Assembly: GCA_903813345.2 (NCBI GenBank)
Contig: CAIIXF020000010.1
Location: forward strand, 11,090,349 to 11,154,348
DNA from: Owenia fusiformis
Lineage: Eukaryota > Annelida > Polychaeta > Sabellida > Oweniidae
Length of the DNA: 64,000 nucleotides
Direction: 5' to 3'
Below are positions 3,301 to 60,300 of this stretch, one piece after another (within the stretch, counting starts at the first letter, position 1; the number at the start of each line of letters is the position of its first letter). Position numbers and translations under genes: made by a program. The notes beneath the pieces were generated by a model. That model made no database searches. It was given only the letters and a program-made list of their open reading frames with translations, and was not told the DNA's origin.

Positions 3301-6300
3301 TAATCATTATATTTAGCCTTGAAGGTTTCAGTTTCTCGAGAGGTCTTTGCACTTTTATTGAAATACCTGGATCGTCCCTTGTATAATTTAACATTCCAGT
3401 TGCTAGCAGAGTATGGGGAACTTGAGAAGAGCTGTGCCTGGTCATGTGAGGAGACACGTCTGGGGTTCTATAAGGAGTGCCAGGCACAGCTCCAGCAGAA
3501 TAAAATACCAGGAACAATGGCAGCACAATTCTTTGAGGTGATTTCACTTGTATGGTGTAATGGGTCATGTACATGCTCTTGTGTGTGATATTTATGTTTA
3601 TCCTACACTTAGTGTACTAAATGTATAATAACATGAAAAAATAAATTTGATATTTATTGGCAAAATGAATATCCGGAGGATATCGTTACGATATACTCCA
3701 GGCGGAGGATATCGTGACGATATCCTCCGGAAAACCCAATATACGGAGGATATTGTGACGATATACTCCGCTAGTTGATTTCCCGCCAAATTGACTCTAT
3801 TTGGCATGAAATTCATTTTACAATGATATTATACATTCAGTACACTCCTTGTAAGTGTAGGATAATAAGAACATCCTATGATTTTTTTCAGAATATCATT
3901 TTAATCTACTCGGTGATATTGATATATGCACTCGTTCGCTTCGCTCTCTCGTGCAGATATCAATATCACCTCGTAGATAAAAATGATATTCCTCAAAATC
4001 ATAGGATATCCTATAATTATCCCATGGTTGCAAGGATATAGATCGAATATCACATGAAGATATATTTGATATGTGGATCAAGATATCATATTTTAGCAAA
4101 AAATTCACAAACCATCGAATATCACTTTAAACTATCGAATATCACGTCTTAAAAAGTGATATTCGATGGTTTGAAAAGTGATATTTGATGGTTTCGAATT
4201 ATTTCAAAAAGAATTTCTTTTTTCATTCTTTAATTATTTTCAGAAATATTTTTTTTTTTAAATCAAAATTAAAAAAAAAAATTCAACATTTTTTCACAAT
4301 TTTTTCAATTATTTTTTCAAATTTTTTCTTAAATTATATTTTTCAAATTTTTTCGCTAAAAAAAACACTTTTTTCACTGATGATTTCCCATGGGATAAAC
4401 AGACAATCCTATGGTTTCTCAAAAATCTCAATTATATCCACTCATGGATACAAATATCTTCACTCATTCACTGCGCTCACTCATGAAGATATCAATATCC
4501 ACTCATGGATATAAATGATATTTTTTCAAAACCATAGGATATTCCTATATTATCTTTCATATTAGGTTATTTTGTGATACAAACAATAATTTTACATATG
4601 AGCAATAGAATAGAATAAACATAACGTAGCATTATTACCTTGAGAATATTTGGAATGAAATCCCTGACAAGCTTAGCATGAAGAGGTTTCATCCTGCTAT
4701 TCATATCATTATAAGTCTCCATTTAAAATGAAGTAATTGTAAGAGACATGCGGATTGCACATGTGTATTTGTGTCCAGGAATTATATAACAATTAATTTA
4801 TCCTAATGATGTACTTTTCATACTATTATGTGTATGTGGTGAATTATATAATGAAATAATGAATGAGCAAGTATAATTGAATTAAATATAATTAATTTAT
4901 TATTAAAATAAAAGTGCATGTGTATTTCTAGCTGTTTCAAATTGCATTGTAGGACCTTAGTGCCAAATCTGCAGGTTTAGAGAAGGCGTATCTGCTACAG
5001 TTATCTCTGGAGTGTCTATCCCATCAAATAGATGGCACTAGTGTAGAACAAGCACAAACTCAAGATGACCAATCAGAACATGGTGGACAGGTGTTGTGGG
5101 TTGCTATATGGGAATGTAGATTTGAGGCACTGCGGAAAAAGCTTCAGGTACCTTTACTGTACTTGGTTTGATTTAAAAAAAATGGATTGGACCCATATGA
5201 CATTTATTCATGCCATTCAAAAAATAAATAATGTAGGGCATTCCATTAATGGCAGTTCTAGAAATTCCTAAAGAAATTAAAAATTGGCTCTGAATCTTAT
5301 TATTATTGGCTGCCTGGATAAAAGGGAACTTATGCATGTTATGTTATTCATTTGACAGGGTCGCCCCAATAAGGGAGACGTTAAAGAAGCATTGAACAAA
5401 GTAGTTCCAGTGGGTAGGAATATGTTACCAGATGAGGAGCAGTATTCTAAATTACAGCAGGCATCTATGGATGAAAGTAGTCCCGTTGTTGAGGTAATTG
5501 CCAGTCACTGTAGCTGCTCAGAAAATGTACAACATTAAGTCAAAAATACTTAAATTTTGAAAAGGAAAAAATTCAGTAATTCTCCAAAAGTCTGCATGAA
5601 TGTTTAAATAATTAAAGTCTTAATCATAAAAACTTTACTCATAACTAGGATGCTGACATGGTACAGTTAGTGATTGGCCAGTTGCTGGGAAATGGTCAGA
5701 TTGGAGAGGCATGTGCAGTATCCAGACAGTTCAATGTTTATAGCCAGGATCTAGCCATAATACTTGTAAGTACAATGTATAAGCCATAATACTCATGAAT
5801 TCAATGTTTATAGCCAGGATTGAGCCATAGTACTCAATAATTCAAGTTTATCACTTGGACTAAGCAACATTAATAAAGATTCAATGTTGACTCCATGGAT
5901 CTGGCTACCCCTAACAGTGATTTTTTGTATAGGTGTAACCTAAATGAACATCTACCAGTCTTTGCCAAGAGACAACCTTTTTAGAAATTGCAGACAGTCA
6001 AGTCTTAATTTAAGCCATACTTCTATTTCAGACATGTATTGGACTTGTTGACCAGAGTATTAGTCTGGAAAGGCTGTCTAATGACATGAAGACATTGTTG
6101 CAAACCTCTCCACCTTCCCATAGACGTGGCTCCAAGCTTAGAGCTTCATTAGGGCTTTCTAGAACACTGAGCAGTAAGTTTGTACAGTACACAGTGTAAA
6201 TTACGATAAAATGATATTGAAATCAACAGAGATAAATGTCTATATATTTATCACTATTTGTAGGGTAGGCTTTAACATTGACATTGTCTGTTTGGTGCCC

Positions 6301-9300
6301 CTCCCCTTCCTCGCTTCCCCTCCTCCTATGGGAGGGGCTTAAGTTATGTCTGTCAGTCATGCAATCCTAATATGTACATACATCTAAGACTTGTTTATTT
6401 CAGCCACCAGTCTTTCTAGCACTGTGTCAGCTGCTGAAGACTTCATCGCCATGGAAACTGACAACATTCTTGTTACCATGGAGACACTTAGTTTGCACTG
6501 TGTAAATGGGTTGAAATGCTGCAATAGAATAATCAATGCTCACAAAATTGCTATGGTAAGGTCTTAATTCACAAAAGTGTTTAAGCACCTCAAAATCTGA
6601 TATTACTTTTTTAAAGATTTTTTGTAATTTAGCTAATTTCGTATTCATAGGTGTTTTTCGTAGGCAGATTTTAACAAAACCATCATTGTGCAATTGCTCT
6701 TTTTCTTGGGAATACTGTAGATGTTTTATGTCACTCAATATTACTGAGCTGCAAATAATAGCACATTTATTCTTCCTTCAAATGATATTATGAGATAACA
6801 TTTGATATTTTAAGTACTATGTACGAAAATATTCTGAAAATGTTCATTGTAATAACATGTGAATGAAATATTTGACAATATATTTAAAAATGCTAGAATT
6901 ATAGTAATTATTTTGACCCTCCGCATTATGATGACATTTCAGGCTCTTAGCTGTAGCTATGATAATGTGAGGAGACAGGAGCACTTTGATGTGTTGAACA
7001 GTCTCCTTAGCTGCAGGGAAGCCAATAGATACACACTGGCTAAGGACTATGTCACCTTCAATGGTGTCTCTCAAGATAAGGTACCAAAGTATAGCCAGTT
7101 CACAAACATTGAAATTGTTCTCAGCTCTTAATATAAGATCATGTAATACAATTGGACTCTGTGGATTATCACTCATTACAACTGTACCAAATGTGTGGAG
7201 GTACAGGGTGTCTCAAAATGTACCCAAAAGTATATCAAGAGCACAGATAAACCAATCAATATTTTCAGACATTGTTTGCATGGTCATGTAGCCAAAACAT
7301 GAAAGTTTTCTCCCAAATACACCATTTTTATTTCAGTCTTGTCTTTTTGATGCTTTAACCCTTTATCTTTTACACCACATAATCGATGTAACTCGAGGAC
7401 AGCCTGTATCCGTACTGCTTCATTGTTCATCACATTTGATAATAATTCCAGTGGAATGTTTTGGATTTCTCTTTGGATGTTGCCCTTCAGTTGTTCTAGG
7501 TCTTTTTGCTTGGAATGAGCATTAAAACACTCCTTCAAATAGCCACAGAGAAAGATGTTTGAGGATGACGATGGCAGAACAAACACAGATAATCAGGTCA
7601 ATTATCGGCAAATAATTCAGGAGTTACCTTCCAGAGTTAGGCAGGCTAGCCTGGGGACTAAATGATATCCAAATGAAAACACAGTGGTCTCAAATTGATA
7701 CACACAACAAAGGCTACATTAGAATCCCCACCAATGCAATTTCTTGAACCTCTGACCTCTCTGTATAAGGTGGCTATAAGACATTGTGAGGGCCTCCCTA
7801 TTCACCATATTTGATGGCCCATACTTTTTTCTGAGGTTATTTGAAGGAACATTTTTATGCTAAACCCAAGCTAAGAGACCTAGAACAACTTAAGACCAGA
7901 ATCCGAACAGAAACCAAAACATTCCACCAGAAATATCAAATGTGATGAACAATGTAGTAGTAAGGATGCTGACTGTCATCGAAATATGAGGTTACATTGA
8001 ATATGTGGTGTAAAAGGTAACGGGTTAAAGTATCAAAAAGGCAAAACTGAATTGAAAACTGTGAATATGAGAAAAAAACTTTCATATTTTATCTTCAAGA
8101 CCATGCAAAAAATGTCTGATAATATTGATTGGTTTGTCTATGCTGTTGACATACTTTTGGGTACATTTTTTTGAGACACCCTATATATACTTCAAATAGC
8201 ACATTATTCGATGATTGTGGAATTTCTGGTGATATGATTGTCCAGTGTAAAAATCAGGACCTCATGAAATACAGATTTTCACTTTCAAAATATTCCCCGA
8301 AATTCACTCAAATCTTTGAAGAACTTCTAGTACATGGACCAATCAGTAAAAATTCAAACAATTATACATGAATCTCTGCCTTACCTGTATGTTCCAATAC
8401 CTGTATGTTTTCCTGTTTGTTAGTTTACATTCAAATGTGTTTTTATATCTGTTTGTTTCCATATTTCGCCTGTCTTACCTTTTTTGGGTAGATTTGGCCT
8501 GTGTTTTATCTGTTTGTTTCTATATTTCATCTGTTTTTTCTATATTTCACCTGTTTGTTTCTATATTTCACCTGTTTTTGTCTATATTTCACCTGTTTGT
8601 GTCTATATTTCACCTGTTTATGTCTATATTTCACCTGTTTGTGTCTATATTTCACCTGTTTGTGTCTATATTTCACCTGTTTGTTTCTATATTTCACCTG
8701 TTTGTGTCTATATTTCACCTGTTTGTGTCTATATTTCACCTGTTTGTGTCTATATTTCACCTGTTTGTTTCTATATTTCACCTGTTTGTGTCTATATTTC
8801 ACCTGTTTGTTTCTATATTTCACCTGTTTCTATTTTTGATTTATTCTATATTTTATTTACCTGTTTGTTGCTAGAAATTACCAATATAATACTTCTATGT
8901 TTCAGGTGCTTGATTTTATATGTGATCTTATCCTGTCCTCTCTAAAGCATTCCTTAGATTGGGATGATACAGGTGAGTCTTTGTGATTTTTTTGTTTGTA
9001 TAAGCCGGGATACATTATATGGGGATTCATGACTAGGTGATTTGGGGATTGAGGGGATGGTGAAGGAGATGATATAGAGGAGCGATGTATCGGCAATGAA
9101 TCATATTATATACAAAAGAATCAGTCTTAATATATCTACCTGTTTTAATCTTTATTTATTTTATTCAACTTCACAATTAAATGAAATGATACCCATCATT
9201 TAACATTTAGAAGAGTAATCACCAATAAACATTACATTCTAGATGTACTACAATCCTGGGTGAATATAAACGCCACGCATGAGATTGCCCATATTGAGCC

Positions 9301-12300
9301 TGAATTGCTGCAATTGGGTGACAACCCCTCCCTCATAGGAGAGAGGCTCCTTCATCATACGGCAGCATTCACAGCAACAGATGATAGTGACCAACAGAAA
9401 GTCACAAAAGGTAAGTGGAATTGTGTGTTTTCCTTGTTTAGATTTCAGACCTTATCTTTATAACTTTTAGCCCATTGATGGAAGGAGCAGATGACCATAT
9501 AATGCCAAAATAGGTAAGAGAATTTCGCTTTTACTTTGTTTTTTCAGTTCCTAGATGACGACAGGATGATGCTTCTTATGTGTGAGTGAAATAATGAATC
9601 GATTTGTTTGTTTGTGAAAATTTAGTTATTTTGTTACCATAACAATGGTAAACAAGGATAGAAATCCTGTCTTAGAAGTCAATACTGCTGCAACAATTCA
9701 AAGTTGAGAAATATTCAAAAGAAGTGGTTCAGATAAAGCAGAAGCCAATTAATGGACCCTCTAAAAATAGAACATAGGATAAAAATACATTGTAAATGTG
9801 ATTCTTTCAGAAAGGTTTTCAAATAGGATAGCGGTATATAGTGTGAAGCAAAAACAGAACTTTCTAAAAAATAATAATTTATGTATGACTTTTGCTATTA
9901 GTTTTATTTTTCAGGTACAGAAATAACAATCTATTGATAACATTTATTTTGATATCAAGTTTGATACATTTTGTTCATTGCGTATAATGTGTACATGTCA
10001 TTTGTGATAAGAAGATACTGATAATTTAAAAGTTTTTTAATGGCGCTCTTCAAAAGTGTGTTTGAAGATTTTGGTCATTAGCAGGAGAAGTGAGTAGCTC
10101 CCACAATTCTTTCATATTCTATCGTATTCGGGGATTCCCCATTACGTCATCTCCCGCATCATCTCCCATCAAATTGCAGGATGTGATCACGTGAACAATC
10201 ATGAGCACTTGCTCTCTCAGTGCTGCACATGACAAAGTTAAATTTGAAATCACGGGAATGGCGTTAACATTGGTTCAACATCATCATTTCAAACCTACGT
10301 TAATACTATTGAAGTTACTCGATCCATACTTGTAGAGAATACTCATAAAACTACAGCGAACATTTGGAGATCCATTTCAATGGCAAATGAGGCCTGTTAA
10401 TATAATTTGTTTTCAAATGTGCCAATACGAAAGGTCATCCTTGGGAAATCTCCCCCTGGGTCATTAGTGAGGTCATGCAAGGTCAGTGTCATGTGTGTAG
10501 GTTTATAAGTAACATTAGTATAAGAGTTCACATAAAAGACACGTACAACTTGTTGAACATTTCATAATGTGAGAATGTTTTATTATTTTGCTTATTATGT
10601 CACCATCAAAAGTGGTGACATATTGTTATGTCACCACCAAAAGAGGTGACATATTGTTATGGTCTCCAACTATTGTGACAGCATTCAGCGGTTGGTGGTT
10701 AGCAATCAGAGTTTGGAGTCTGTAACAGTTTACAATAACTTACAAGGTGTGCGTGATGTAATTTATTGCATGAGTCCATTGTAGACTTTCTACACACACC
10801 TATTCAAGGTTTCTTCGTAATCTAGCGTTTTAAGAAATGTGTGATTTATTGTTTACTTTGAACATTGACATTGTTCAAATGGTAGAGCAAACATTTTTAA
10901 GTTCAGTATTAAGTGATAATACATTTCAATTTACCTTCATGAAAAGGCTTTAATGTCTTGATTATTGAAAACCCTTCTACAGTACTCATGTGTTACTTTC
11001 ACTTTGTGTCAACATTCCTTACTTCTATTTAAAGTAATCCTTTTTAAATTAATCATCATACATTTATGTAGTTCGTTGAATCGCATGTCACAAGTTTTCA
11101 ATAGAATGGATAACTTGATAAGAGGGTGAACTTTGACAACAAATGATTTTTGTAACCGAAAGAAAAGATAAACTGTATAAATACATATTTATGTCTTAGT
11201 TGAGACTAGTTCAATTGCAAAGACTTTTCTGATAGTACATGGTACTGTTTAACAAAAGTTAATAAAATGGATTCCAATAGAGACTCAAACGAGGAATCTC
11301 CTTACATGAGCATGAAGAAGGAATCTCCTTATGTGAGCATGAAAAGGGTGACAACAACCAGCCCCGAATCATGCAATGATGATGTGAGAAAACATGGGCA
11401 GTTTAAGCCTCCAGTGCCTTCGCCACGCCCAGGAAGACTTCAGAATGCAAATCCACCAATCGTTTGTGATATTTGCAGACAAGAGGGTGAGCGTATCATT
11501 GCAGTAGGATGGTGTACTCAATGTATGGGACATTTCTGTAACACTTGCAAACGAGCACACTGTCTTTCCAAAGTATCGAGACATCACAAGTTTCTTGAGT
11601 TGAATGGTGATGCACAGAAAGATGATGCAATGGTAAAAGAAATACAACTCAAGAAAGACATCGTGTGTGAATTACATCCAGGTAAAGTCTTGTCACACTA
11701 TTGTCTTGATGATGAAGCTCTTATTTGTGACTTCTGCTGTAGAAGTAACCATACCAAGCACCATTACATTGACATTGAAGATGTTGCATCTGATGCCCTC
11801 AAACAAGAAGATAAACTGGTTACAATCATTAAAAAAAGAATTGGAGACTGTGACAAAGAAATTGATAACTCTATGGATGATATAAGCACAGTCATTCAAA
11901 GTAAGGATGATTTTCTCATCAAAGTAAATGAGGAACGTAAATCGATGCACGAAACACTTGATGCTCATTTTAATAAGATTGAACATGAAGGAAATGGAAG
12001 TCATGATGCAGCTATTGCGAAGATTCAAATCCACCAAAAGATGGTAAGACTTGAGAAGTTCAATAGTGAGAGTGTATTGAATCAGTTAACAACCGCCAAA
12101 GCCAAACATCACCCTGTCCAGATTGTAAAATCTAGTAATGAAATTAAGAGAACACTTGAAGAATGGAGACATGTCCTGCCTCGATTAAGCTCAGAACCAC
12201 TGAACATCAGCACATTTCAACCAGGCGTCCTGGATATGACAAAGCTAGCTCAGGTTATCTCAAGGACTTTACAGGGGTCACAGAGGCTATGTGAGCCATG

Positions 12301-15300
12301 TATACACAGGATAGGGCCTTTATATGATAAGAAACCTGGTTACAAAGCACTGATCGATATCTCTATAGGAGGCAAAGGTGATCTTGCTGTGCTTAACATT
12401 GACAGCTCTAATAGTGCACAGTATCAAATGGCAACATATGATTTAGACACTATTACTGTAAAGAAAACTGTATATGGATTATTCCATGGTCTTTGTACAC
12501 TAAACACTGGATGTTACGCACTTACAGACCATGCTAACAAATGCATTGCAGTGTATGATGCAAATCTCGAGCATCAAAGAAACATTGCTATTAATATGTT
12601 TAAAGATCCATGGGGAATTTGTGAAGGCTCAGCAGGGGAAATTATGGTTACTGATACCGGCTCTAAGTCAGTGAGTCACATAGATTCCTCTTATGGATCC
12701 GTTGTTTCCTCCATCTCCCCTGGTATTCTCAATTGCTCTTGGCCATGGTATGTAGCCATCAACAGTGAAGGCATGGTCATCATCTCTGATGATTATAAAA
12801 ATTGTGTAAAAGGTGTGGGGAAAAAAGGTGAGACAAAGTTCATCTATGGGGGCAAGGGTCAAGGTCAAGGTCAGTTGAAAGGACCAGCAGGTGTTTGTGT
12901 TGATCCACTGGATAATATCATTATAGCTGATAATGGTAATGATCGAGTTCATCTGCTGGATCCCAAGGGGAATTTCATTCGATTTGTTCTAACGTCTGCT
13001 GATAAATTCAAGGGCCCCATGTGTGTTGCTATTGATAAGAAAGGAAATTTGATCGTTGGGTCTCATGATGGAGATATTTGCCGCATCACATATCTGACAC
13101 AGTAAATCGTAAAATGTTCAATTCCATCACATCGGTCGTGTCTGTAATGAGTTATATTGTCCTGATGTGTGGTTTCTTGAATATCTTATATGATTCACTC
13201 TACTATACCTTGCATTTGATGTTCATGAGCAACCCATTTGGCTTATTAGTAATGATTATGTGATTTGTTTTTATTTTTCTGTTCCTTATTAATGGCTCAT
13301 CGGATGATGTTAGATGTTAATAAGGTACTTTCAAATATATACTAAACAATACAATTGGACAAACAGAGTATCTTATGCATTTCTAGGGGTTAGGTATAGT
13401 AGAGTGATGATTGTTTACATGTGTGACAGATTGCAACCATTTCCCATATGGAGCTTAGTAGTGTGGTTTCCAGTTGAATAAATAGATGTCAGGAATTAAA
13501 GCTAGAAACCATTTCATTATTGACAGTGGCATTAATGAGACATTAAACGAAGATCCACTGATATTGAAAAGTAATTGTGTTCAATAGAGGCTGTCATACA
13601 ATTCTGACTCATCTGTACACTGATTTTTAAAAGTAGTGTATCGCATTTGTATTTAAAAGGCTGATAATGGCTTGGAACCTTACCTTGATCATTTGCAGAA
13701 TGCGATTAGCAGACTGTGACAGTCAGTCTGTGGAAACATTCTAGCTTAAAATATGGTCATTGTTCATCAACAAAATGAAAAGCTATGATCATATCCATAA
13801 GTAGATCCCATTGGAGAAACGATTTTTGCAACTGAAGTATTCCTATGAAAATTTGAAAAAATGATTCATCCATTTCATACAGATGCAGTGTTAAATAGAC
13901 TGCAACGAGTTTAACTCTCACTTATCAATTTCCAGATAGAATATCAAATTAGCGATCTTCAATTTTTATTGCCTTAACTGAATATTACATCTACTTTGGC
14001 ATGGATTTATCATGGATTTCAATTCAATTCAATTTCAAAATAATTTATTTCAGTTTTCATTACAAAAATTACAACATTATACAGGCTATGACACCCCAGG
14101 GGGTGTATGACTGCCCATAATTAAATTTACAATAAACATGATAAACTGTGAACATTTAAAGTGGTACATAGGTCAATACAATAATATAATATAAATACAA
14201 TATACAAATACAATAATATGAGACAATAAAGAAATGAAATAAATGTTTTGGTTACTCTGTACTCAGGAGGTCAATTTTCAAACGAGATATGAGTGAATTT
14301 AATGGTTTATTTCTAGCTTGAAGCCCATTGATTTATACAGGCGCAATATGCTGCCATTTGATTCAACATCAGGTAACATATACATCGATTAGAAGCAACA
14401 GAGTCATTTGTGAAAGGCAAGTGAAGCTAATAATCTCACCAATCTCATATCAATTACAAGACTTAATAAAGTTTCATTAAACTTCACAATCTAATGGTTT
14501 CGATGTTGTTATAATGATTGAGCTTAACAGGGCGACAATGTGCTGAATAAAATTGAAATATCATCCAGAACATTGAACTAATGGTTCCGACTTTCAAGTC
14601 GTTGACTTCTGATTCCTTGAATGACTACTATGAATATTTCTCTATTTTGTACAAAATATATGGTTACTTTACAATGTCCCAGACACCCAGAGGGCATGTT
14701 TTACAGTATAACAGTGTTGCAAGCCAGTGTCTCTGACCTCACACTATCTTTGAGTTTTTGATCTTTCGCAGATGACTACAGTCACAATATTGTAGAATCA
14801 TGATAACACTCAGATATTCAATTACTTAACAGTAAGTGAAAATTACTATCTGTGTAAAAACTTGCATCGGAAGCTTTATAACCAATTAAAAAAATGTTGT
14901 GACGTATGTTGTGAAATGAAACAGGTACTTTGTCATTAAACTGTCTAAGATTGAAGAGTACTGGAGATAAAATACAGTAATAGGGAACCTAATGGAGGTC
15001 CTTATTTTATGGAGCATAAGAAGACATCAATATCTAACATCTAATGGATATTAACGTCTTCCACATTGCGGAAGAATAACAAGATTAGATAGTGCTGACA
15101 TACAATGGATCACTGGATACAACAGATTACTAAATCCTATGCACGATAGATGTAATAGCTCAAAAGGAAATGTTGACTGTGAACAAATTAGCAATTTTGT
15201 TATAAATAATTTTGCTGACTTAAAGCAAGGATTTATTTCTGCAGCTGCAAAACTGCTTAGAACATAATAGAATATATTCATAAATAATGATATTCTTGCG

Positions 15301-48300: not shown

Positions 48301-51300
48301 GGCCCATTATTTACTGCAAGGCCTCTTACTTTCTTTCAATATAAGATAAAATGGATTTTTAATGATTTTGTGTATGATTTAAAGGAGTGCTACACCCAAA
48401 TGACTTCTTCATTGGCAATTCATAAATGCCCCGTTGATTTCTGATTTCACTCATTGTCTCACATTTTTGGTTTGTTAAAATAGTTTTAGAAATAATATAA
48501 AAAAATACTGGAGGCTGCCATTTTGAATTTAATTTCCAAGATGGCTGTTACAGTAACCTTACTATTGTCAACGAGCACATAAAGGTGATTCAAAAGTCAT
48601 TGATTCTTTGATCTCATGTCTGCACTATTTTATAAGGATGTATTCAATGGCAAAAATCTATTTGAAAGGGTATATATTATGTAGCTTATCTGTCTACTTT
48701 TGGACACCATCCTTTAATCCCACTTACAGAATATTTATAATAGCTACATACAAGAGATGATGTCAGTGCATTGAGGTTGATTTTTTATAATGAAATTTAT
48801 TCAATAAATATATAACTACATGTATATTTCATAATGTCATTATACCAAGGTTGAATTGACAATTCTATATCTATCATTTTTACATTGTGACCTATTTTAA
48901 CTTATATTGTAACTACTTCAACAGGGCCAATAATGCTTCGGCGTAGGCCCTGTATCTGTTTGTATGATGTATTATGAAATAATGGTGATATAAAAATTTA
49001 AAAAAAAAAAATTGACAATTTTGTGTTTATTAAGGACAGACAATAGAATGTACTTGTAGCCTTTGAACTTCATATTATTAAGTTCATACACTAGTTGCCA
49101 GTTCTTCATGTGCTATTTTTCTGTTTATTTGTTTTGATGAAAACATGTTAATATATACCAGGTTAAGTTGACTCAGTTTTGTTATTTCTCCAATTTAATT
49201 TAGTAATACAAATGTTTTTCTAAAGAAGACATGAAAATACTGGTACATTTCAGTAGAAATAGGAAGTTCATGTTACTAATCTTTTTAAGTTTGATTTAAG
49301 TTTTGGTTAAATATTTACAAAATCAAATGTTGGTTCAATTGGACAAATGTAGTTTAGCTGACAGGTGAGCAAGTGCTACTGATATAAACGTTGGCAAAAA
49401 TGTGAAAACAGCACACACGTCAACAATTAACCAAAAAATAACAGTAACATGTAAAGATGAAAATAAAGATATACGCTATTTACAGTTCATAGAAATCAAT
49501 GCAAATTTCGGTCAATGGATTTCTTGAAAGGAATGGTGAAGGATTATGGTTAATGGACTACATGTGTACAAGTGATATTCAATATTAGAATAAGATGTTG
49601 AGGTATATCTCTTAAAGATAACACAGTCTAAAGTTTACTTGAGTCACTTTGAAATTAACTATACGACCCTTGATCTATATAGTAATCAGTTTGTCTAGAA
49701 TTAGCACAAGAGTTGAGGTGTTACGATGTCAAAGCTAGATTTACAGTTACTAGAGTCATAAAGTGGGATTTGTCCTCCCAATGAGTTGATTACAGCTCTT
49801 GTCATTTCACAATGGAGCAGTTAAAACATAAATTATTTGAAGCAATTTCGATTGGGGAACTGGCAAAGGTCAAGCAGATCTTAACTGGTTGTTCGGATTG
49901 TCATTTAGCACAGTTATTGCGGTGTAGATTGGATGATACATTGTGTGTGCGTCGCCCGAGTAATGGACGTGAGTTTTATGTGCAACACCCAACCGCACTA
50001 ATGGTGGCCACTATTAGCTGGTATACTGACATAACGGATTATCTGCTTACATTTAAAACTGGCGTCAATGATGGACATACTGTTGAGGATTCAACCAATC
50101 AGCCGGCAGTGTTTGACGGAGTAACCCCATTGTGGCTTGCTGCGATGAGTGGGAAGTATCAGATGTTGAAGAGCATGCTTGAAAATGAAGCTGATGTCAA
50201 CCAAACCACCTCTTTAGGTAAGTATAAAGTGGAGACCATACCATCTTTTCTAAACATGAACATTCTTTCACTAACATATACAGAGAGTAGTTTACTACTC
50301 TTTGTCGGCTTAATTGACAGCTACATGTATGTCTATAATGCTTTAAAAGGATTTATGTTGTTTTGTGTTTTTTCTCATGTTGCCTTTAATATAAGTTTGG
50401 AATGGAAGAAGGCTACAAAACTATATTAATGAATTCAGTCTAGAACATTCTTACATCTTAGCAGTTTTATAGTTAAGGCCTTGCTTATGCCAGTCCCAAG
50501 TGTGGTTGGATTTGTCTCATTGTCTTATAATGAACAAAGTGGCTAAAATAATATGAATACAACTCCTCAATAATTCTTAACTAGGCAAAAGTAATAACTC
50601 TTACATGTTTATGTCGTTATTAGTGTAATAACAGCATTTTCCATATCCTCATATTACCTGTACATCTTTTACAAATGGAATTTTACAAAGCCTAAAGGGC
50701 AAGTCAGATATCACCTTGTGAATGTGCCACAGGTATTCACTGAAACTAGAATCTTGTATCACCTATATTTGAAGAGTAGATTTTTTGAGCATGGCCAGGG
50801 AATGTCCCCTCATCTGTCATTTCATTTCAACCAGGGTGTGATTAATAAATATTAACTTTGAATTGCTTTAATTGGATGGCCATTTTATTTTGGCTGTTCT
50901 GACAGATTGATAAAAACCGCCAAATTAAGTCTCCACCAATTTTTGGAAAAAATCCCTTGGACCTTTGGTCAAAACCATTTTTTATATTTCAGCTCATATA
51001 GTACTATGAAGGTAGAACCTCCATGTGTCACCCCAAGAGTAACCTATGTGATTTCTAAGCCTTCCATATCCATATTTATTTGATGAGTCAATCCTCTGAT
51101 TAAATAGCAGCGGAAATTCCAAAATTTGCCCAAATTAAATAGTGCCAAAATTACATCAATTTACATTACTTATGCTCATATCCATTTTATGACACCCATA
51201 CTGGTAATTTACATCATTGGTCCTGATTTTTTTTATAGTGTTTCCAATTTATATAATTTATGTTGATTGGACTATGATAATAATTCCTGAAACATGGGGC

Positions 51301-54300
51301 TGGGGGATGGTAGGCATCATATCCATTTGTTTTAGATCATAGTTTGAGGTATTGGGGATTTTCTTTCCTTGTGAGTGATTATACTGTATTGTATTTCCCC
51401 TTTTGACACTTCTGCTTATCTATAGATGCATAATATCCCTTGAAATCTCACATCAATAGTGAAATAACTTTTATTTCGTTTATAACTGCATTCAATTGAA
51501 CCTGTAACTTATATGGCTTTGATAAGTTCTGCATATTAAAAAGCTAATGGTTTATAAATATGTTATCACTAAATTCAATGCACAATCCATCATATTATTT
51601 GCTTGTTCCCCTTAAAGCTTTGAGCATTTCTCAATTGCAAAGTTCTTTCGCTCTTAATAATTAATGAATCATCCTTAAAAATCCATCCATTAAACAAAAT
51701 TGATTATGTGTAGAATATAGTGTGAAACATGAGATGGCGCCTAAAAACACACAGTATCTCATGCTGTTATATTCAGCTCTATTGACTGAGATATGACACG
51801 CAACTCATAATTAATATAATAAACATTATATTCTAGTAATGTAGGATAAGCCACAATAATTTGCATCTAGATATCATAGAAAAATAGTGAAGCTGAAAGT
51901 TCCACACACTAGACCTTATTTGTAAGAATATAGGCCATATTTGTAAATGTGGGCCTAAAAATAGGCCTTGAAAATGCGTCTTTGAAAAACAATATTCCCA
52001 TTTTTTTTAAATCTCCAAAAATTACAGGAAAAATATTCAAAATTATGTGGTCCCCATTGTGAATTATCAGGCCCACCCTTTTATTACCTAATCTCTATAG
52101 AACATGCTTTCCATCTGATGGCAATGAAAGGGCAGTGTACCTTCAAACATTGGCTGATATTGTATGTCAGTATATTCCCCACATATCTATGGGATTTAGT
52201 TGCAAGTTTCATTAGTTAAAACGATTGTCTACATAATCAGTAGCCCACATAAACAACCATCACTGTCACAAATGCTTAGTGGAAAATTGCACAATCTATC
52301 TTTACTTAATACTTCAAGAATTTTAAAAGCCACTCTGTATTTATGTCAGTGTATATCTGTATAATGTCATAATTCTTAAGACTAAGGTTGGCATAATAAT
52401 ATTAATTGTAATGCACCCATGGTATCGAGATCTATTGAAGGTCATTGTAATTTGTTATATGAATTTCACATTATTGAGACCTTATATACTATGCCTTTTC
52501 TCAATTGAAGAAGAATGTTTTGGATTATTATGGCACCATTGAATATCAATATGAGAATATGCCTGTTGTGTTTTGGGGTATATAATGCCTGTTGTTTTTG
52601 GGGTATATAATGCCTGTTGTTTTTGGGTATATATCTGTTTTATAACAAAATCGCATAAAGAGACATATAAAAATACAACAGCCATAAGGAAACAAATCCT
52701 TAACAGCCACTATGAACTAATAAATGTTGCAAGTGACTCCCCCCCCCCCAGTTTATCTCCATTACAAAAATACTACCAACCATAGAACTCTATCATACTG
52801 GATTCATTAAGATACATGTTGATGAATAATTTAATAGAAGAGACTGTATCAAATGTAACTGTCAATACTAGCCTAAACTAATCTCAGTTGATAGATAAAT
52901 CTAGAAGCAAAATCTAATCAGTGTCAAAACTCAAAGGTCAATAGATCAACAGATTAAAATGCAAAAACAAATGTACTGTAGTGGCTAACTTCTGATTTGA
53001 GCAAAAACATAATTGTTTCTAATATTAATATTAAGGAATGAAGACCGAGATTCTATGATTTATGGCGCAATCTATGACTTATGATTTTTCTGATTGAGCG
53101 ATTGAGGTCTTTGGCAATGGGCAGAATAAAATCTAAGGTTATATATTTGCCATAAATCATAGAATCAAGGTCTTTGTTATGATTCTATGATGAACATAAC
53201 CAGAAAAAACATGTATGTACATTGAGGAAAAGTGGTCATATATATTCCATCCATAGAACAGTAAATCAATGATTAAACAAGTACAGTGAACATCTATAAT
53301 CTACTTGTATAATGATGTATTTTCAGGTGAAAGTCCACTGTTTGAAAGCTGTTTTGAAGGTCATCTGAATATCGCTAAACACCTTGTCGAGAAGGGTGCA
53401 GATGTCAATGCAGTTAACAGCCGCAATATATCCTGCTTGATGATTGCTGGATACGCTGATTCGTATGATATTGCCAAATTCCTTGTTGACAATGACGCTG
53501 ACATTCACATGCTTGATGACGAGAACAGAAATGTCCTATTCTACACTGTATCAGGTGGTCACCTACGTATGCTCAAGTATTTTGTATCTTTGGGAGTTCA
53601 GCCTACATTGGATAGACAACAACGAGATATATTAATGGAGGCTGTGCAAAATGGATTTCAGCATATTGTTGAATACATCATTACTGCAATGACTGAAAGT
53701 GTAAATATTAATCAACGTGACAAGAATGGACGTAACGTCTTATTCTATGCAGTTGAAAGTGGAGTGCTCCCTATACTTGAGATGCTTTTAAGAAAGGTTG
53801 CACTTATTGAAACTGCGGATGATGGACGTTCGTTAACAATGGTTAGTGCATTAAAAGGGCATGGCCATATTGCTCGCTATCTTCTCATCAACCACCACAA
53901 CCTTGGCATAGATGTCAATGAAAAAGATACTAAGGGGCGCAACGTATTATTCTATTGTGTCACTGGAGGGGACCTGAACTTATTTACAACCTTCTTAAGA
54001 CATGGGGTCAGAGTAGAGAGCAGCACTGATGGTATCACAATTCTCATGCAGGCTGTTGCAAAGGGCCAAATGGAATTCACTCTGTATATTCTGAACAACA
54101 TTTCCCGTATCGGACTTGACATAAACCAGCAAGATAAGGATGGTTGGAACGCCTTATTTTATGGCATTGCAGGTAATTATGGATGGTAATGTTCAGATAA
54201 ATGTATTTTGATGGATTATTTTTTGTAAGAGAAAACCTTTATGACAAATTAAGCATAACTAATAACTGCTGTAGTATTCCTATGAAAGAAATATGATATT

Positions 54301-57300
54301 GCCTTTTATGGTAGATTAGGCTTATTATACTCAATGAACGAATCATTAATCATCTTTAATTGTTTTAGAAATGTATTTTGTCTGGTGACATTTCAATTAT
54401 CACTTTAATTATATTTTTAGGAGGTCATCTAGAGCTTTTCAAGACTGTTGAAGCCCATGGTGCTGTTGTTACTTCTTCCAAAGATGGCCGGTCCATCTTG
54501 ATGCAAGCTGCATTGAAAGGCCATATGGAGATGGTTCAATACTTGGTGGAACATACAAGTCAATTTGGTCTTTCTGTTAATCAAGTAGACACTGATGGTT
54601 GGAATGTCCTTTTCTATGCAATACAGAGTGGTAATTTGGATGTCTTCAAATATCTCCTTAGTCATGGTGCAACACCACTGCCAGCCAAAAATGGTGTTAC
54701 TTGTCTCATTGAAAGTATTGATAAAAGCAAGGATGACTTCGTAGATTACATCATCGATAACTCAGAGAAGTTGGGAATTGACTTACATGAATCTGATGAT
54801 CAAGGTGCTCACTGTCTCTTTTATGCTGCTGCTACTGGACACATTGACTTAGCAAAAGTGCTTATCTCAAGAGGACTAAAGGCTAATGATGATAAACAAA
54901 AACGTTCTGTATTGATGCAGTCAGCCTTAAGCGGTCACATGGACTTAGTCAATCATTTTCTGCTTACTGACATGCATCTTGGACTTGACATCCATCAGTG
55001 TGATGTCCATAATAAAAATGCAGTATATTTTGCAGTTGAAGGTGGCAAAGTTGCTATTGTGAAAAGACTGGTTAGTGAAGGGATTAAATGCATCCCTGAT
55101 GACATGGGAAAGACATGCTTGATGATAGCTGCTGGGAAACATGACAAACAAATGGTGAATTACCTCCTTACAAATGCACAAACTCTAGAATTAGAAATCA
55201 ATGCAAAAGATAATAATGGGGAAAATGCGCTTTTCTATGCAATGAATTCTGGTAGTATTGACATTTTGGCAAATCTTTTGACAGCAGGAGTGGAACTTAC
55301 TTCTAATAATAGCGGCATTAATGTGTTTGCCCAGTGTATGCGACAGAATAATCATGACATGATCAAAAGTATTATAGCCAGTAATATTGACCTGAAGGAT
55401 GCTGCAAATGGAAAGGACAGTAAAGGATGCACCACACTTTACAACTGTGTCAGCCAAAGTGATATTGATTTGCTGTTATTGCTAGGTAAGGATTGTCTAG
55501 ACTTAATAGCACATGTCTAGAGCAAGGCAAACAAACCCTTTCATTACCACAATAAATGTTCTTTTAATCATATAAATCACAGTTGCAAACTTGTCTTTTT
55601 AGGCCAATACTATGATGAAACCACTGACTTTGATTCTGAAGGGAAAACAATACTGATGAAGGCCTGTCAGCAAACAAATGTACAAATTGTGCAATATCTG
55701 CTTGAGGATATGTTGGTGGATGCAGAGAGAACTGACAGAGATGGTTGTAATGCTTTATTCTATGCTGTACAAGCTGGTAACATGGAAGCAATGAGGTTTC
55801 TGTTTGGCTTTGGTGCAAGTTGTGTCAGTGACAATCAGGGACGTACACTATTAATGGCTGCTGCTGAATCTGGAAATTTAATGATCACTGAACATCTCTT
55901 GAAGTATATATTCAAGAAGGGAAAGATGGAAATGTTGGATAATGATGGAAGAAATGCTGTTCACTATGCTGCCAAACAGGCAGACCCCTTTGTTGTATCT
56001 CTCCTTCAAAAGTATGGGTGCTCAATAGACCTCAGAGACAATTCTGGGGTAAGACCAATCATGATTGCTTGTCAGTATGGTAATGTGAGAGTGTTTGATG
56101 AGTTTGTTCTGCTCAAATGTGATACTGTACAATGTGATGATAAAAATAGGGGTCTTCTCCATCATTCCCTGACATCTTCAACTCCAAGCAAGATTTTACT
56201 TGATTCCATCATCCAATTGCCACATGTAACAATTAACACTCAAGATAACAATGGGACAACACCATTCATGGTTGCCTGCTTAAATTGTGATAGAACCCAT
56301 GTCCACATTATTGAAGTATTGCTCAAACTTGGTGCCAATCCAGAAACTCAGGACAAGAAGGGTAAAACTGCAATTGATTATTGCACCAAAGATCAATCCT
56401 TCATCAAGTCATATCTCAGAAGGTATTCTTCACTTGACAAATCATTAAGAAATATCCTCCGTCTCAATGCAAAGTCCCTTGCCACAGTTATTTCTGTCAG
56501 TCAAATTTTACCTTATCTAGTCAGAACCAGATTTTTAACAAAGCACCATGTCTCTGTCTTAACCCAGAAGCAATCTGAAGTTGAAAAATGCAAAAAGCTC
56601 ATTCAAATATTACAAACTAGAGGAAGCAGATCATTTGCAGTATTTTGCAATGCACTTGAGTATGGGGGCTATAATATAATAGCTTACAGGCTAAAAAGAT
56701 TAGCTTATCAGAAAACTGTAGAGATAGTAGTTTAAATGTTAGAACATTCCAACAAGAAACTTGATACTAAATCAATGCACTATGTCGGTCTTTATTGTTA
56801 TTTCTGATTAGTTTCTCTCATGTGACTTCACGATGGCTTTGTTATTTTGATAATCTTCAATTTGAATTCAGTGCCATGCTCACTTCGATTCGTGTATATC
56901 ATGATTTATTCCATGCCTGCCATTGTATTGTATGTCATGTAAGTTTATAACATTTATAATAAATGTGCATTAATTTTACTTAATGTCTCAAAATGTGTGT
57001 TGAGTTTTGAATCGTAGTTTAAAATGTATAGCATAATGCAGCCAAGCATGTGCCTTACTATTTTCTAGTTGTCTTTTCTGGTAATTATAAAGTATTCCAT
57101 TGGCAATTTACGAAATGTATAAGCATCCAGTAGTAGTATATAGAAGTCTAACATTCAGTTTAGTAATGATAAATCACAACAATGAAAATTAGTCATAAAT
57201 CATATACCTTTCTTATATGCTTAAAATATCGATGAACTGATACAAAACATCATTAAATCATTCTAGACAATAATGATGGTGTTGGATAACATGTACGTAT

Positions 57301-60300
57301 ATTTGTATTTCAAGCAATCTAACTTCATCTATAAACTTTTTTTTGTTTTGTATTTAAGCATCCTGATTTATTAGACATTGGGCTTAGACATACAGACAGC
57401 ATTTAATTGCATGTCTAGCATGTTAAATCAGGTAAATTTATTCATTATTTCTCCACTTGGCTCAACATAGAATTGATGAGGACTTAACACCTGCCACAAT
57501 GTACTTAAGGTATGTACAAAGGACATAAAACAAACGATTTGTTAACAATAAGATCAGTATCTAAATTTCTTAGTAATGTACATGAAAAAGTTATTGATTA
57601 TTTAAGAATTCAGTTCTAAATATATTATTAGGTCTCAGGCCTTTAAATCTTTGGAGATCTTTCCATTTCCACAGCCTTGGAGACATAACATTATGATTTC
57701 CATTATGTTGCAATTAGATATTTAGAGATCTTTTCTTTTCCACAGCCATTTGGTTTTAACTCTCTATTCAAACAACACACTTTTGTAAAAATTAGCCTAA
57801 AATGATTTCCTTCAGAAGGTCTTGAAGTATTGTCCCCCTCCTAAAACATCTTATGATTGGTTACTTACTTAACATATGTACAGGGTGTTTCATCTGTATG
57901 CACCCCCCCCCTCTCTAAAATCAGTTCATCCTGTATATGCTTCCCTCACCATACCTTGAGTTAGGTACACATTCTTTGATTTCTAAAATGTTGCATAATT
58001 TTGGATATTTGAGCATCCATGATATTGTAGAAACAATTAACGAGTCAATGTAATATTCTGAGTTGATGAGAGCCCTGGATAGGCTAATAGCTAACTTAAA
58101 CAATGTTTCAAATAAAAGGTGGTAAACTATCATGTGATAGAATTGATTGTGTTAGATAATTACCATACTTAATTATATATTTGCGCCTTTCTAATTTTTC
58201 CCGATTTTTTCATCATAGGCCTTTATATGGAGGTAGAGCTGTTGATTAAAGCTCATGACTGTCACACAATGGCATGTAATATGGAGGGGGTCTCCAATGT
58301 GCTACAGCAAGCAAGACAGTGCAATATAAGACTCACTGCAGCAGAGGAATACTCCCTCATGGTATGTTCTTTGTTATTGTATTAAAGGGACTTGTCTCTC
58401 TAAAACTGATTAAATCTATTTAAAAGTGGTTTCTAGTAGCACTGGTCAGTATCAAGCGATGGTAACGGCCGTAACCTTCGCATTTAAGATGGTGGATGGT
58501 AATTCAGTAATTGTCAATTTTAGTTTTAATTGAATTAAACTACTTTATAGTTGATGTTATGCTTTGATATCTGGACCAAATCAGGCTATATGACATGGGA
58601 ACTCTGGAATATGATAATTTGTTCATATATCATGTGTCTGCCTCAAGGATATCTTAAGGGACGGTAACTGTACATGTATGATACGGTTAATTTTCAATAC
58701 GCGGCAACTGGACATCTTAGCTTCCATTATAAACTCTCATAACATTATGGTTTCACTGCATATCAGTTATCTTGTCATCTGTAAAAGCAAAATCCCAGTT
58801 ACCTTCCCTTAAGCAGTGGAAGATATCGGGAACTGTGGTGCTTACACATGGTATATGAAGAAACGATCATACTCCAGTTTCCATGTCATGTATGCCTGAT
58901 ATAATTCAAATATCAAAGCATTATGCCAACTATAACGTCGTTTAATTCGATGAAAACTAAAAATATTGAAATCGCCACTCACCATCTGCCATCTTTGATC
59001 TGAAGGTTATGGCCATTTCCTTCGCTTGATACTGACCAGTGAGTAGGGTACACATAGCTTGCCATGTAAATAAATTCATTTGTTCACTTGGAATTGAAAT
59101 GCAATATTTCTCTCCACTTGTGAATTGTTTACATACTAAACATGAAATACAAGTTATTTTACTTAACATACAATCTGAATATTTAACTGCCATTCCAGAT
59201 AAGACTTCTGACTGGATTGGGAAGATATGGAGAGATGGTCTACATATTTGACACTTTGAAGGAGTCGCATCAGTTTGAGCTTCTATTCAGGAAAGGTATT
59301 GAAAAGGTAAGTTTTCCAGTTTGGTTATAAAGTCATGTTTGTTGAAAATATGTTGCAATACCCAAAGCAGCCAAGTTTGAGCTTAAGGAAGCTTGAGAAC
59401 AAAAACAAAAACTCATGTATTGAGATTTCGTCTTTCAAGTGACCTTGACTTATGTAAAGGTGATCATGGACTCTCTTGATCCTAACACTAATTGTGTACT
59501 ACGTGTACTGAGTTTTATTAAAATACATTGTCCTATAAACGTTGAAGTAGATGGCCATCTGGCATTGAATCATACTTCAAAGATGACACTCAAATAAATA
59601 TTGCATTCAGAAGATTCAGATGGACTTACAATGTCATATTAATTAATTTAATTAATTAAGATTTTGCTTTTGTTATGACACCATCAGGAAGTGATATCCC
59701 ATGTCACTATCAAGAAGTGGCAACATTTTGTTATTGCAACCATTTCTGTGACTGGGATTTGTAACAAATGGTTACACTAAATATAACCAGGTGGCAACAA
59801 TTTTAAATTGGAATGCCTGTTCTACTTGCTTGTTATCTCCAAAATATGAACTTTACATTACAGTACATTTGTTTCAGAATGATGGTTTGAAACTTGCTAT
59901 TCTGGACTACTTAAAGCGCTTCCACCCTGATGACACTGAAACATTTACGATGGTGTCTCTTCACTTCACCATGTATAGAGAGATAGCCAGCATGTTAGAG
60001 ACCACTGCTCTTGCACAACTCAACTCCCTCAAACACAAAACACTAGGTGAGTATTCGTAAGGTCAAGGTCACGCAAGGTGACATTTACATCACTATGCCT
60101 GGTATCTATGCAGATAAAATGACTTTCTTAGAATTATCTCCACCTTCAAATCACAATATTATAGTTGGACATTAGTTCTGTAATATGTGTGAAATTAAAG
60201 TTGTCCTACTTGTAGGAGGGATAGAGAACCCCCACAATTGTTTCTGTATAACATGTGACACAGGTAGGGCAGCTTTAGACAATTGTGTACATGGAAGGCC

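Follow-up and report, generated by a model that had tools for sequence, protein, structure and literature searches.

Gene model and domain organization

The window analysed is a stretch of 64,000 nucleotides of the polychaete annelid Owenia fusiformis (assembly GCA_903813345.2, contig CAIIXF020000010.1, positions 11,090,349 to 11,154,348 of the forward strand), and coordinates are given below as positions of this window unless another contig or locus is named. On its plus strand, at 49812-56735, lies a gene whose predicted product of 1149 amino acids (aa), referred to here as the ankyrin-CARD protein, joins a long ankyrin stack to a C-terminal CARD, an assembly domain known from cell death and immunity. 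The first-pass annotation of this DNA had proposed the same span and product length, the long ankyrin stack and the C-terminal CARD, and all of these were borne out.

On the sequence evidence the gene is real and is described by a model of four coding exons. Exon 1 (49812-50217, aa 1-135 and the first base of codon 136) encodes a weakly FEM1-like N-terminus up to aa 101, followed by an ankyrin repeat from aa 102. Its start context is ACAATGG, an in-frame stop is located upstream at 49782, and the donor site is TAG/GTAAGT, where the slash marks the exon end. Exon 2 (53327-54172, ending at the first base of codon 418) carries the remaining FEM1-like repeats and the earliest two-repeat units, exon 3 (54421-55485) the middle of the ankyrin stack, and exon 4 (55603-56735) the final ankyrin repeats and the CARD, in one uninterrupted frame including the stop; all four are on the plus strand. 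The introns, 50218-53326 (3109 bp), 54173-54420 (248 bp) and 55486-55602 (117 bp), are all GT-AG and all in phase 1. The frame is open for 3450 bp over the four exons, and the G+C fractions by codon position (0.499/0.335/0.356) constitute a coding signature. The exon 1/2 junction rebuilds an ankyrin repeat with a gap-free alignment to host FEM1, and the exon 2/3 junction preserves a spacing of 69 aa; the exon 3/4 junction is less regular and falls in one of the two most diverged units. A possible polyadenylation signal, AATAAA, is present at 56958-56963 (+), 223 bases 3' of the stop.

The ankyrin stack was recognized by Pfam Ank_2 with an expectation value (E) of 1.2e-125. It starts with the FEM1-like repeats, continues with a tandem array of 11 units, each a pair of ankyrin repeats (53512-56141, + strand, a span that includes introns; aa 198-952) and a few irregular repeats, and leads into the CARD. 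Measured between anchor motifs picked by eye, the ten unit spacings were 68, 69 (seven times), 67 and 68 aa. A self-comparison of aa 231-830, which is independent of these anchors, gave sharp peaks at lags of 69 (1.25) and 138 (1.18) and a negative value at lag 33. Pairwise identity from unit to unit was 7-49%, and the stack seems, from this pattern, to have grown through duplication of repeat pairs. The other Pfam matches of the protein were ankyrin-type families, CARD models, DUF7829 inside the ankyrin stack and FBD below threshold; no nucleotide-binding or enzymatic domain was found in the Pfam scan of the 1149-aa protein.

The CARD (56442-56696, +, about aa 1053-1137) is clearly recognizable and matched PF00619 over aa 1057-1126 with 37.3 bits, above the curated cut-off of 23.9 (E 2.8e-9), and PF16739 over aa 1053-1137, below the cut-off of that model. 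The nearest solved CARDs by sequence were those of RAIDD (E 5.5e-5), APAF-1 (E 8.2e-5), CARD11 (E 4.8e-4) and caspase-9 (E 8.6e-4). A structural model of aa 960-1149, a piece of 190 aa, had helices at its residues 95-99, 103-109, 112-121, 127-133, 139-152, 155-167 and 171-189, a pattern that fits a CARD within the limits of the model. Blocks of ten residues had predicted local distance difference test (pLDDT) scores of 34 for model residues 91-100, 54-84 for residues 101-180 and 31 for the last ten. In a Foldseek search with this model the APAF-1 CARD 1cy5 came 39th, with a TM-score of 0.75 (normalised by target length), a root-mean-square deviation of 4.9 and an E of 9.4e-3. Two features of this modelling count against it: the model was built from the single sequence, without an alignment, and is of low confidence (mean pLDDT 57.7), and designed ankyrins were its best Foldseek matches, occupying most of the ranks above 1cy5.

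Compared with other CARDs of the genome, this one is unusually basic. Its net charge is +11 over 87 aa and +8 over the Pfam slice. In a comparison that includes some partial slices, the charge of the first CARD at the 33 other host loci ranged from -8 to +3 (zero or negative in 27 of the 33), and that of the second CARD of four of those loci from -4 to +1.

Two further explanations of the gene were rejected. The fusion of ankyrin repeats to a CARD is not a splice artefact or a splicing guess, because the last ankyrin repeats and the CARD share the single unbroken frame of exon 4. Membership in a family of close gene copies was ruled out by the weak non-self matches of the C-terminus and of the middle stack: for the last 132 aa the genome offered nothing close besides the gene itself (next E 2.3e-4, 26% identity), and for the middle stack the top non-self score among the 115 of 294 candidates scored was 73.6 bits, at 29% identity. 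No relatives of the exon 4 product were confirmed in prokaryote and viral contigs.

Likeness of the N-terminus to FEM1

Three FEM1 genes of the host genome were assigned by their matches to solved FEM1 proteins: L007 (FEM1C, E 2.8e-154), L008 (FEM1B, E 1.4e-130) and L003 (FEM1C, E 8.5e-92). When aa 1-227 were used as a query against the genome, these three loci were the top non-self matches among the 150 of 652 candidates scored, with 67.4, 62.5 and 61.2 bits, the next match having 56.8. In a control, windows of 155 aa were compared with 30 selected host sequences, of which three were FEM1. A FEM1 was the best match in 4 of 13 windows of the ankyrin-CARD protein (starting at aa 1, 76, 100 and 226) and in none of 89 windows of ordinary host ankyrin open reading frames; this control is an easy one, since the set also contains relatives of the ordinary ankyrins. 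On a profile built from the N-termini of the three FEM1s, the ankyrin-CARD N-terminus scored 112.7 bits, the best of the non-FEM1 set, and among the 30 non-FEM1 matches listed it was the only one aligned with the profile end to end.

The FEM1-like region delimited by these comparisons has two parts on the plus strand: 50115-50217, from aa 102, based on the genome-wide ranking and the local control, and 53327-53682, up to aa 254, based on the rankings, the control and the alignment. On the other hand, aa 1-101 alone scored only 5.8 bits against the FEM1 N-terminal profile, a value reached by one of 2000 shuffled sequences, of which 1393 gave any reported score. Summed phmmer scores against the PDB were of little use, being swamped by designed ankyrins, as was a structure model of exon 1 alone, with a mean pLDDT of 40.9.

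Among host ankyrin proteins, those most like the N-terminus in the sequence comparisons are the FEM1s. The likeness is modest and concentrated in about aa 100-254, and reciprocal ranking fails. The statement of the first-pass annotation that the first ~200 residues follow the FEM1 order thus holds for aa 102-254, which are closest to FEM1, but not for aa 1-101, and the FEM1 genes do not rank the ankyrin-CARD protein first in return.

FEM1 ancestry of this N-terminus is probable, with several results weighing against it. The best ordinary ankyrin scored 107.2 bits on the FEM1 profile, a small margin below the 112.7 of the ankyrin-CARD protein; one reverse ranking placed host FEM1B under several ordinary ankyrins (52.9 against 56.6); and FEM1 queries placed exon 2 of the gene 27th, and among 32 sequences the spliced N-terminus came between 5th and 23rd. 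An intron at the exon 1/2 site is absent in all three host FEM1 genes. Host FEM1 C-terminal pieces ranked only 28-30 as matches of the last repeats of the protein, and a FEM1 N-terminal piece matched these repeats weakly, with 33-39 bits, like other ankyrins. All of this would agree with general ankyrin likeness in an ordinary ankyrin-CARD protein without FEM1 ancestry. Such an explanation sits badly with the three host FEM1 loci at the top of the genome-wide ranking, with the groove residues held in common and with the control in which no ordinary window had FEM1 as its best match, easy as it was; it is considered rather unlikely. A FEM1 in which the VHL box had been swapped for a CARD was ruled out, as the last ankyrins do not match the FEM1 C-terminal ankyrins.

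The gene is located at 11.14 Mb on the large contig C10, which also carries two of the host's three FEM1 genes, at 5.11 and 6.37 Mb. The common contig is a weak hint of intrachromosomal duplication.

In FEM1B, according to the available part of PMC11053023, Ser122 and Arg126 hold the C-terminal residue of the degron, surrounded by Tyr84, Trp93 and Phe130, and Ile160, Tyr163, Phe193, His185 and Tyr153 contact the preceding degron residues. Equivalent positions were numbered by equal-length match, assuming a gap-free alignment. Four counterparts are changed (Ser122 to Glu137, Arg126 to Phe141, Tyr153 to Arg168 and His185 to Asp200), four are kept (Trp93 as Trp108, Phe130 as Phe145, Ile160 as Ile175 and Tyr163 as Tyr178), and that of Phe193 is Tyr208, still aromatic. 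A loop insertion makes the counterpart of Tyr84 uncertain. In one alignment a DGHTVE stretch falls on the FEM1 hairpin DGETIE/DGYSIE, and a pairwise alignment to L002 places it elsewhere.

Parts of FEM1 that serve the ligase were searched for in the protein and its surroundings. In agreement with the first-pass annotation, which saw no CUL2-binding box of VHL type, no VHL box was found in the protein or in the three forward frames of 49001-58200 with a profile built on the C-terminal 32 aa of L007 and L008; the same profile recovered the held-out host FEM1 L003 with 14.0 bits. No BC-box letter pattern was found in the protein by a test that is insensitive, having found the box in only one of the three host FEM1s, and the TPR part of FEM1 was not found in the Pfam scan. 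A role as a CUL2 degron receptor is unlikely, because the TPR part and the VHL box of FEM1 were not found and because Ser122 is replaced by Glu and Arg126 by Phe. An altered groove at the FEM1-like start is possible.

The first-pass annotation had also inferred a FEM1-type ligand-binding surface coupled to a CARD. The join of ankyrins to a CARD and the N-terminus nearest to FEM1 among host ankyrins stand; the degron-reading sense is unsupported, given the changed counterparts of Ser122, Arg126, Tyr153 and His185. In that sense the protein would be a FEM1-type degron receptor with a CARD output instead of a ubiquitin ligase, the groove reading C-terminal peptides and the CARD assembling on binding. 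The nearness to FEM1, the four kept residues with the aromatic Tyr208, the position of DGHTVE in one of the two alignments and the binding of FEM1B to the death domains of Fas and TNFR1 and to APAF1, reported in the available part of PMC12319709, would suit such a receptor. The pocket residues Glu137 and Phe141 in place of the serine and arginine, the other two changes, the uncertain place of Tyr84, the hardly FEM1-like aa 1-101 and the reciprocal ranks make it decidedly improbable.

Neighbouring genes and other CARD loci of the genome

Pieces of spatacsin (SPG11) were detected at 71-349, 3304-3585, 58173-58382, 59752-60057 and 61073-61390 (+), in order and on the same strand. The first two are weak PDB matches at aa 1439-1478 (E 0.19) and aa 1696-1761 (E 0.01), and three strong Spatacsin_C matches follow 3' of the ankyrin-CARD gene. 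From this arrangement, the ankyrin-CARD gene seems to be nested within a spatacsin intron. Likewise between spatacsin pieces, at 11267-13105 (+), there is an open frame of 612 aa with a B-box and NHL repeats, a layout that we take to be TRIM-like. A short tandem repeat at 8350-8945 is open in several frames and is probably non-coding, satellite-like DNA.

Contigs C1 to C12 of the host genome add up to about 477 of its 498 Mb, which would suggest 12 chromosomes. The genome has 38 CARD matches in 34 places, including the ankyrin-CARD gene. Ankyrins were found with a home-made ankyrin model at one of the 33 other CARD loci, and with Pfam, run on open reading frames of 22 of the 33, at the same single locus, L062; this survey covered the fetched surroundings of each locus, with more distant exons outside its view. 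The gene at L062:2432-4222 (-) encodes 597 aa in one open frame and, like the ankyrin-CARD gene, has ankyrins followed by a C-terminal CARD; it differs in its shorter ankyrin stack and in the net charge of its CARD, which is 0.

The CARD fusions of the genome are varied. CARDs occur with NHL repeats at L012 and L021, and also at L011, slightly below the cut-off, with a Ras-type GTPase at L014 and with leucine-rich repeats at L036, and in tandem at L013, L016, L020 and L022. There are 37 caspase-domain matches in the host genome, one of them approximately 660 bp downstream of a CARD match, near 37.747 Mb of contig C1. Host caspases are possible partners of the ankyrin-CARD protein.

Proposed function and comparison with known systems

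From its domain composition, the ankyrin-CARD protein is reasonably likely to act inside the cell as a CARD adaptor or sensor with an ankyrin scaffold. The ankyrin stack would hold a protein ligand or an active caspase, and the CARD would then assemble with itself or pair with a caspase or adaptor whose own CARD is neutral or acidic; the latter pairing is proposed because the CARD of the ankyrin-CARD protein is strongly basic. Its charge is no proof of pairing, as nucleic acid or membrane would be equally plausible ligands of a basic domain. The FEM1-like start would probably be derived from a FEM1 ankyrin arm, diverged and stripped of the ligase parts, and would not be a working degron receptor.

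A more specific version of the adaptor or sensor was also considered. Here a FEM1 arm would have been captured, with loss of the ligase parts and the carboxylate clamp and gain of the two-repeat array and the basic CARD, giving a cytosolic sensor in which the binding of a peptide or protein is turned into CARD assembly. This sequence of events is unlikely; if true, a degradation receptor would have been rewired into a death-fold receptor. It is highly doubtful that the protein is instead a brake, binding the CARDs of caspases or adaptors through its stack and CARD and so blocking them, in the manner of CARD-only decoys. In line with such a role, the Pfam scan showed neither a nucleotide-binding nor an enzymatic domain, and a basic CARD would find many potential partners among the host CARD proteins, but the precedent of Caiap is an activating one (PMC5662874, available part).

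The intracellular adaptor or sensor was compared with described proteins. FEM1A, FEM1B and FEM1C are CUL2 substrate receptors, as described in the available part of PMC11053023. The ankyrins of aa 102-254 are collinear with theirs and rank closest to them, and several groove residues are kept; the FEM1 proteins differ in having the TPR part, the C-terminal FEM1 repeats and the VHL box, which were not found here, and the Ser122 and Arg126 that are replaced, while a CARD is present instead. Through the reported binding of FEM1B to APAF1 and death receptors, FEM1 may be connected with CARD pathways, and the FEM1-like start makes this connection testable.

No FEM1-CARD protein was found in the papers searched, partly by titles and abstract openings only. 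The word 'ankyrin' is absent from the main text of PMC2575513, and in the available part of PMC8260672 ankyrins appear only with NF-kappaB. The combination of a FEM1-like start, a C-terminal CARD and 69-aa units had no match in the host genome, in solved structures, in the papers searched or, with only exon 4 as the query, among prokaryote and viral contigs.

The CARDs of RAIDD, APAF-1, CARD11 and caspase-9 are the closest solved ones by sequence, that of APAF-1 also by fold. Their partner domains are a death domain, NB-ARC and WD40, a coiled coil with MAGUK, and a protease, respectively, and not ankyrins.

For ankyrins joined to a CARD, Caiap alone turned up in the papers searched. As described in the available part of PMC5662874, it is a vertebrate inflammasome adaptor of 744 aa with an N-terminal CARD and 16 ankyrin repeats; its ankyrins bind active Caspa and its CARD self-oligomerises. 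The view of the first-pass annotation that such an architecture is not known from vertebrates is therefore corrected. In the same part of that source the CARD-ankyrin combination is called unprecedented, with no claim that other CARD-ankyrin proteins are absent, and orthologues are given from cartilaginous fish to marsupials.

Like the ankyrin-CARD protein, Caiap has one CARD and a long ankyrin stack. Two differences speak against the parallel: the CARD is N-terminal in Caiap and C-terminal here (aa 1057-1126 of 1149), and according to its authors no orthologue was detected in invertebrates (PMC5662874, available part). A FEM1-like start and 69-aa units are not described in that part of the source either. 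By analogy, the ankyrin-CARD protein may work broadly as Caiap does, its ankyrins binding an active caspase and its CARD self-oligomerising.

Beside Caiap, the O. fusiformis genome has two ankyrin proteins ending in a CARD, and the joining of ankyrins to a CARD may therefore have been repeated or may be earlier than thought. Caiap is the closest functional precedent, with the domain order reversed, and because fish have a similar CARD-ankyrin pairing in the reverse order, the protein described here looks like a new arrangement of a known type of scaffold.

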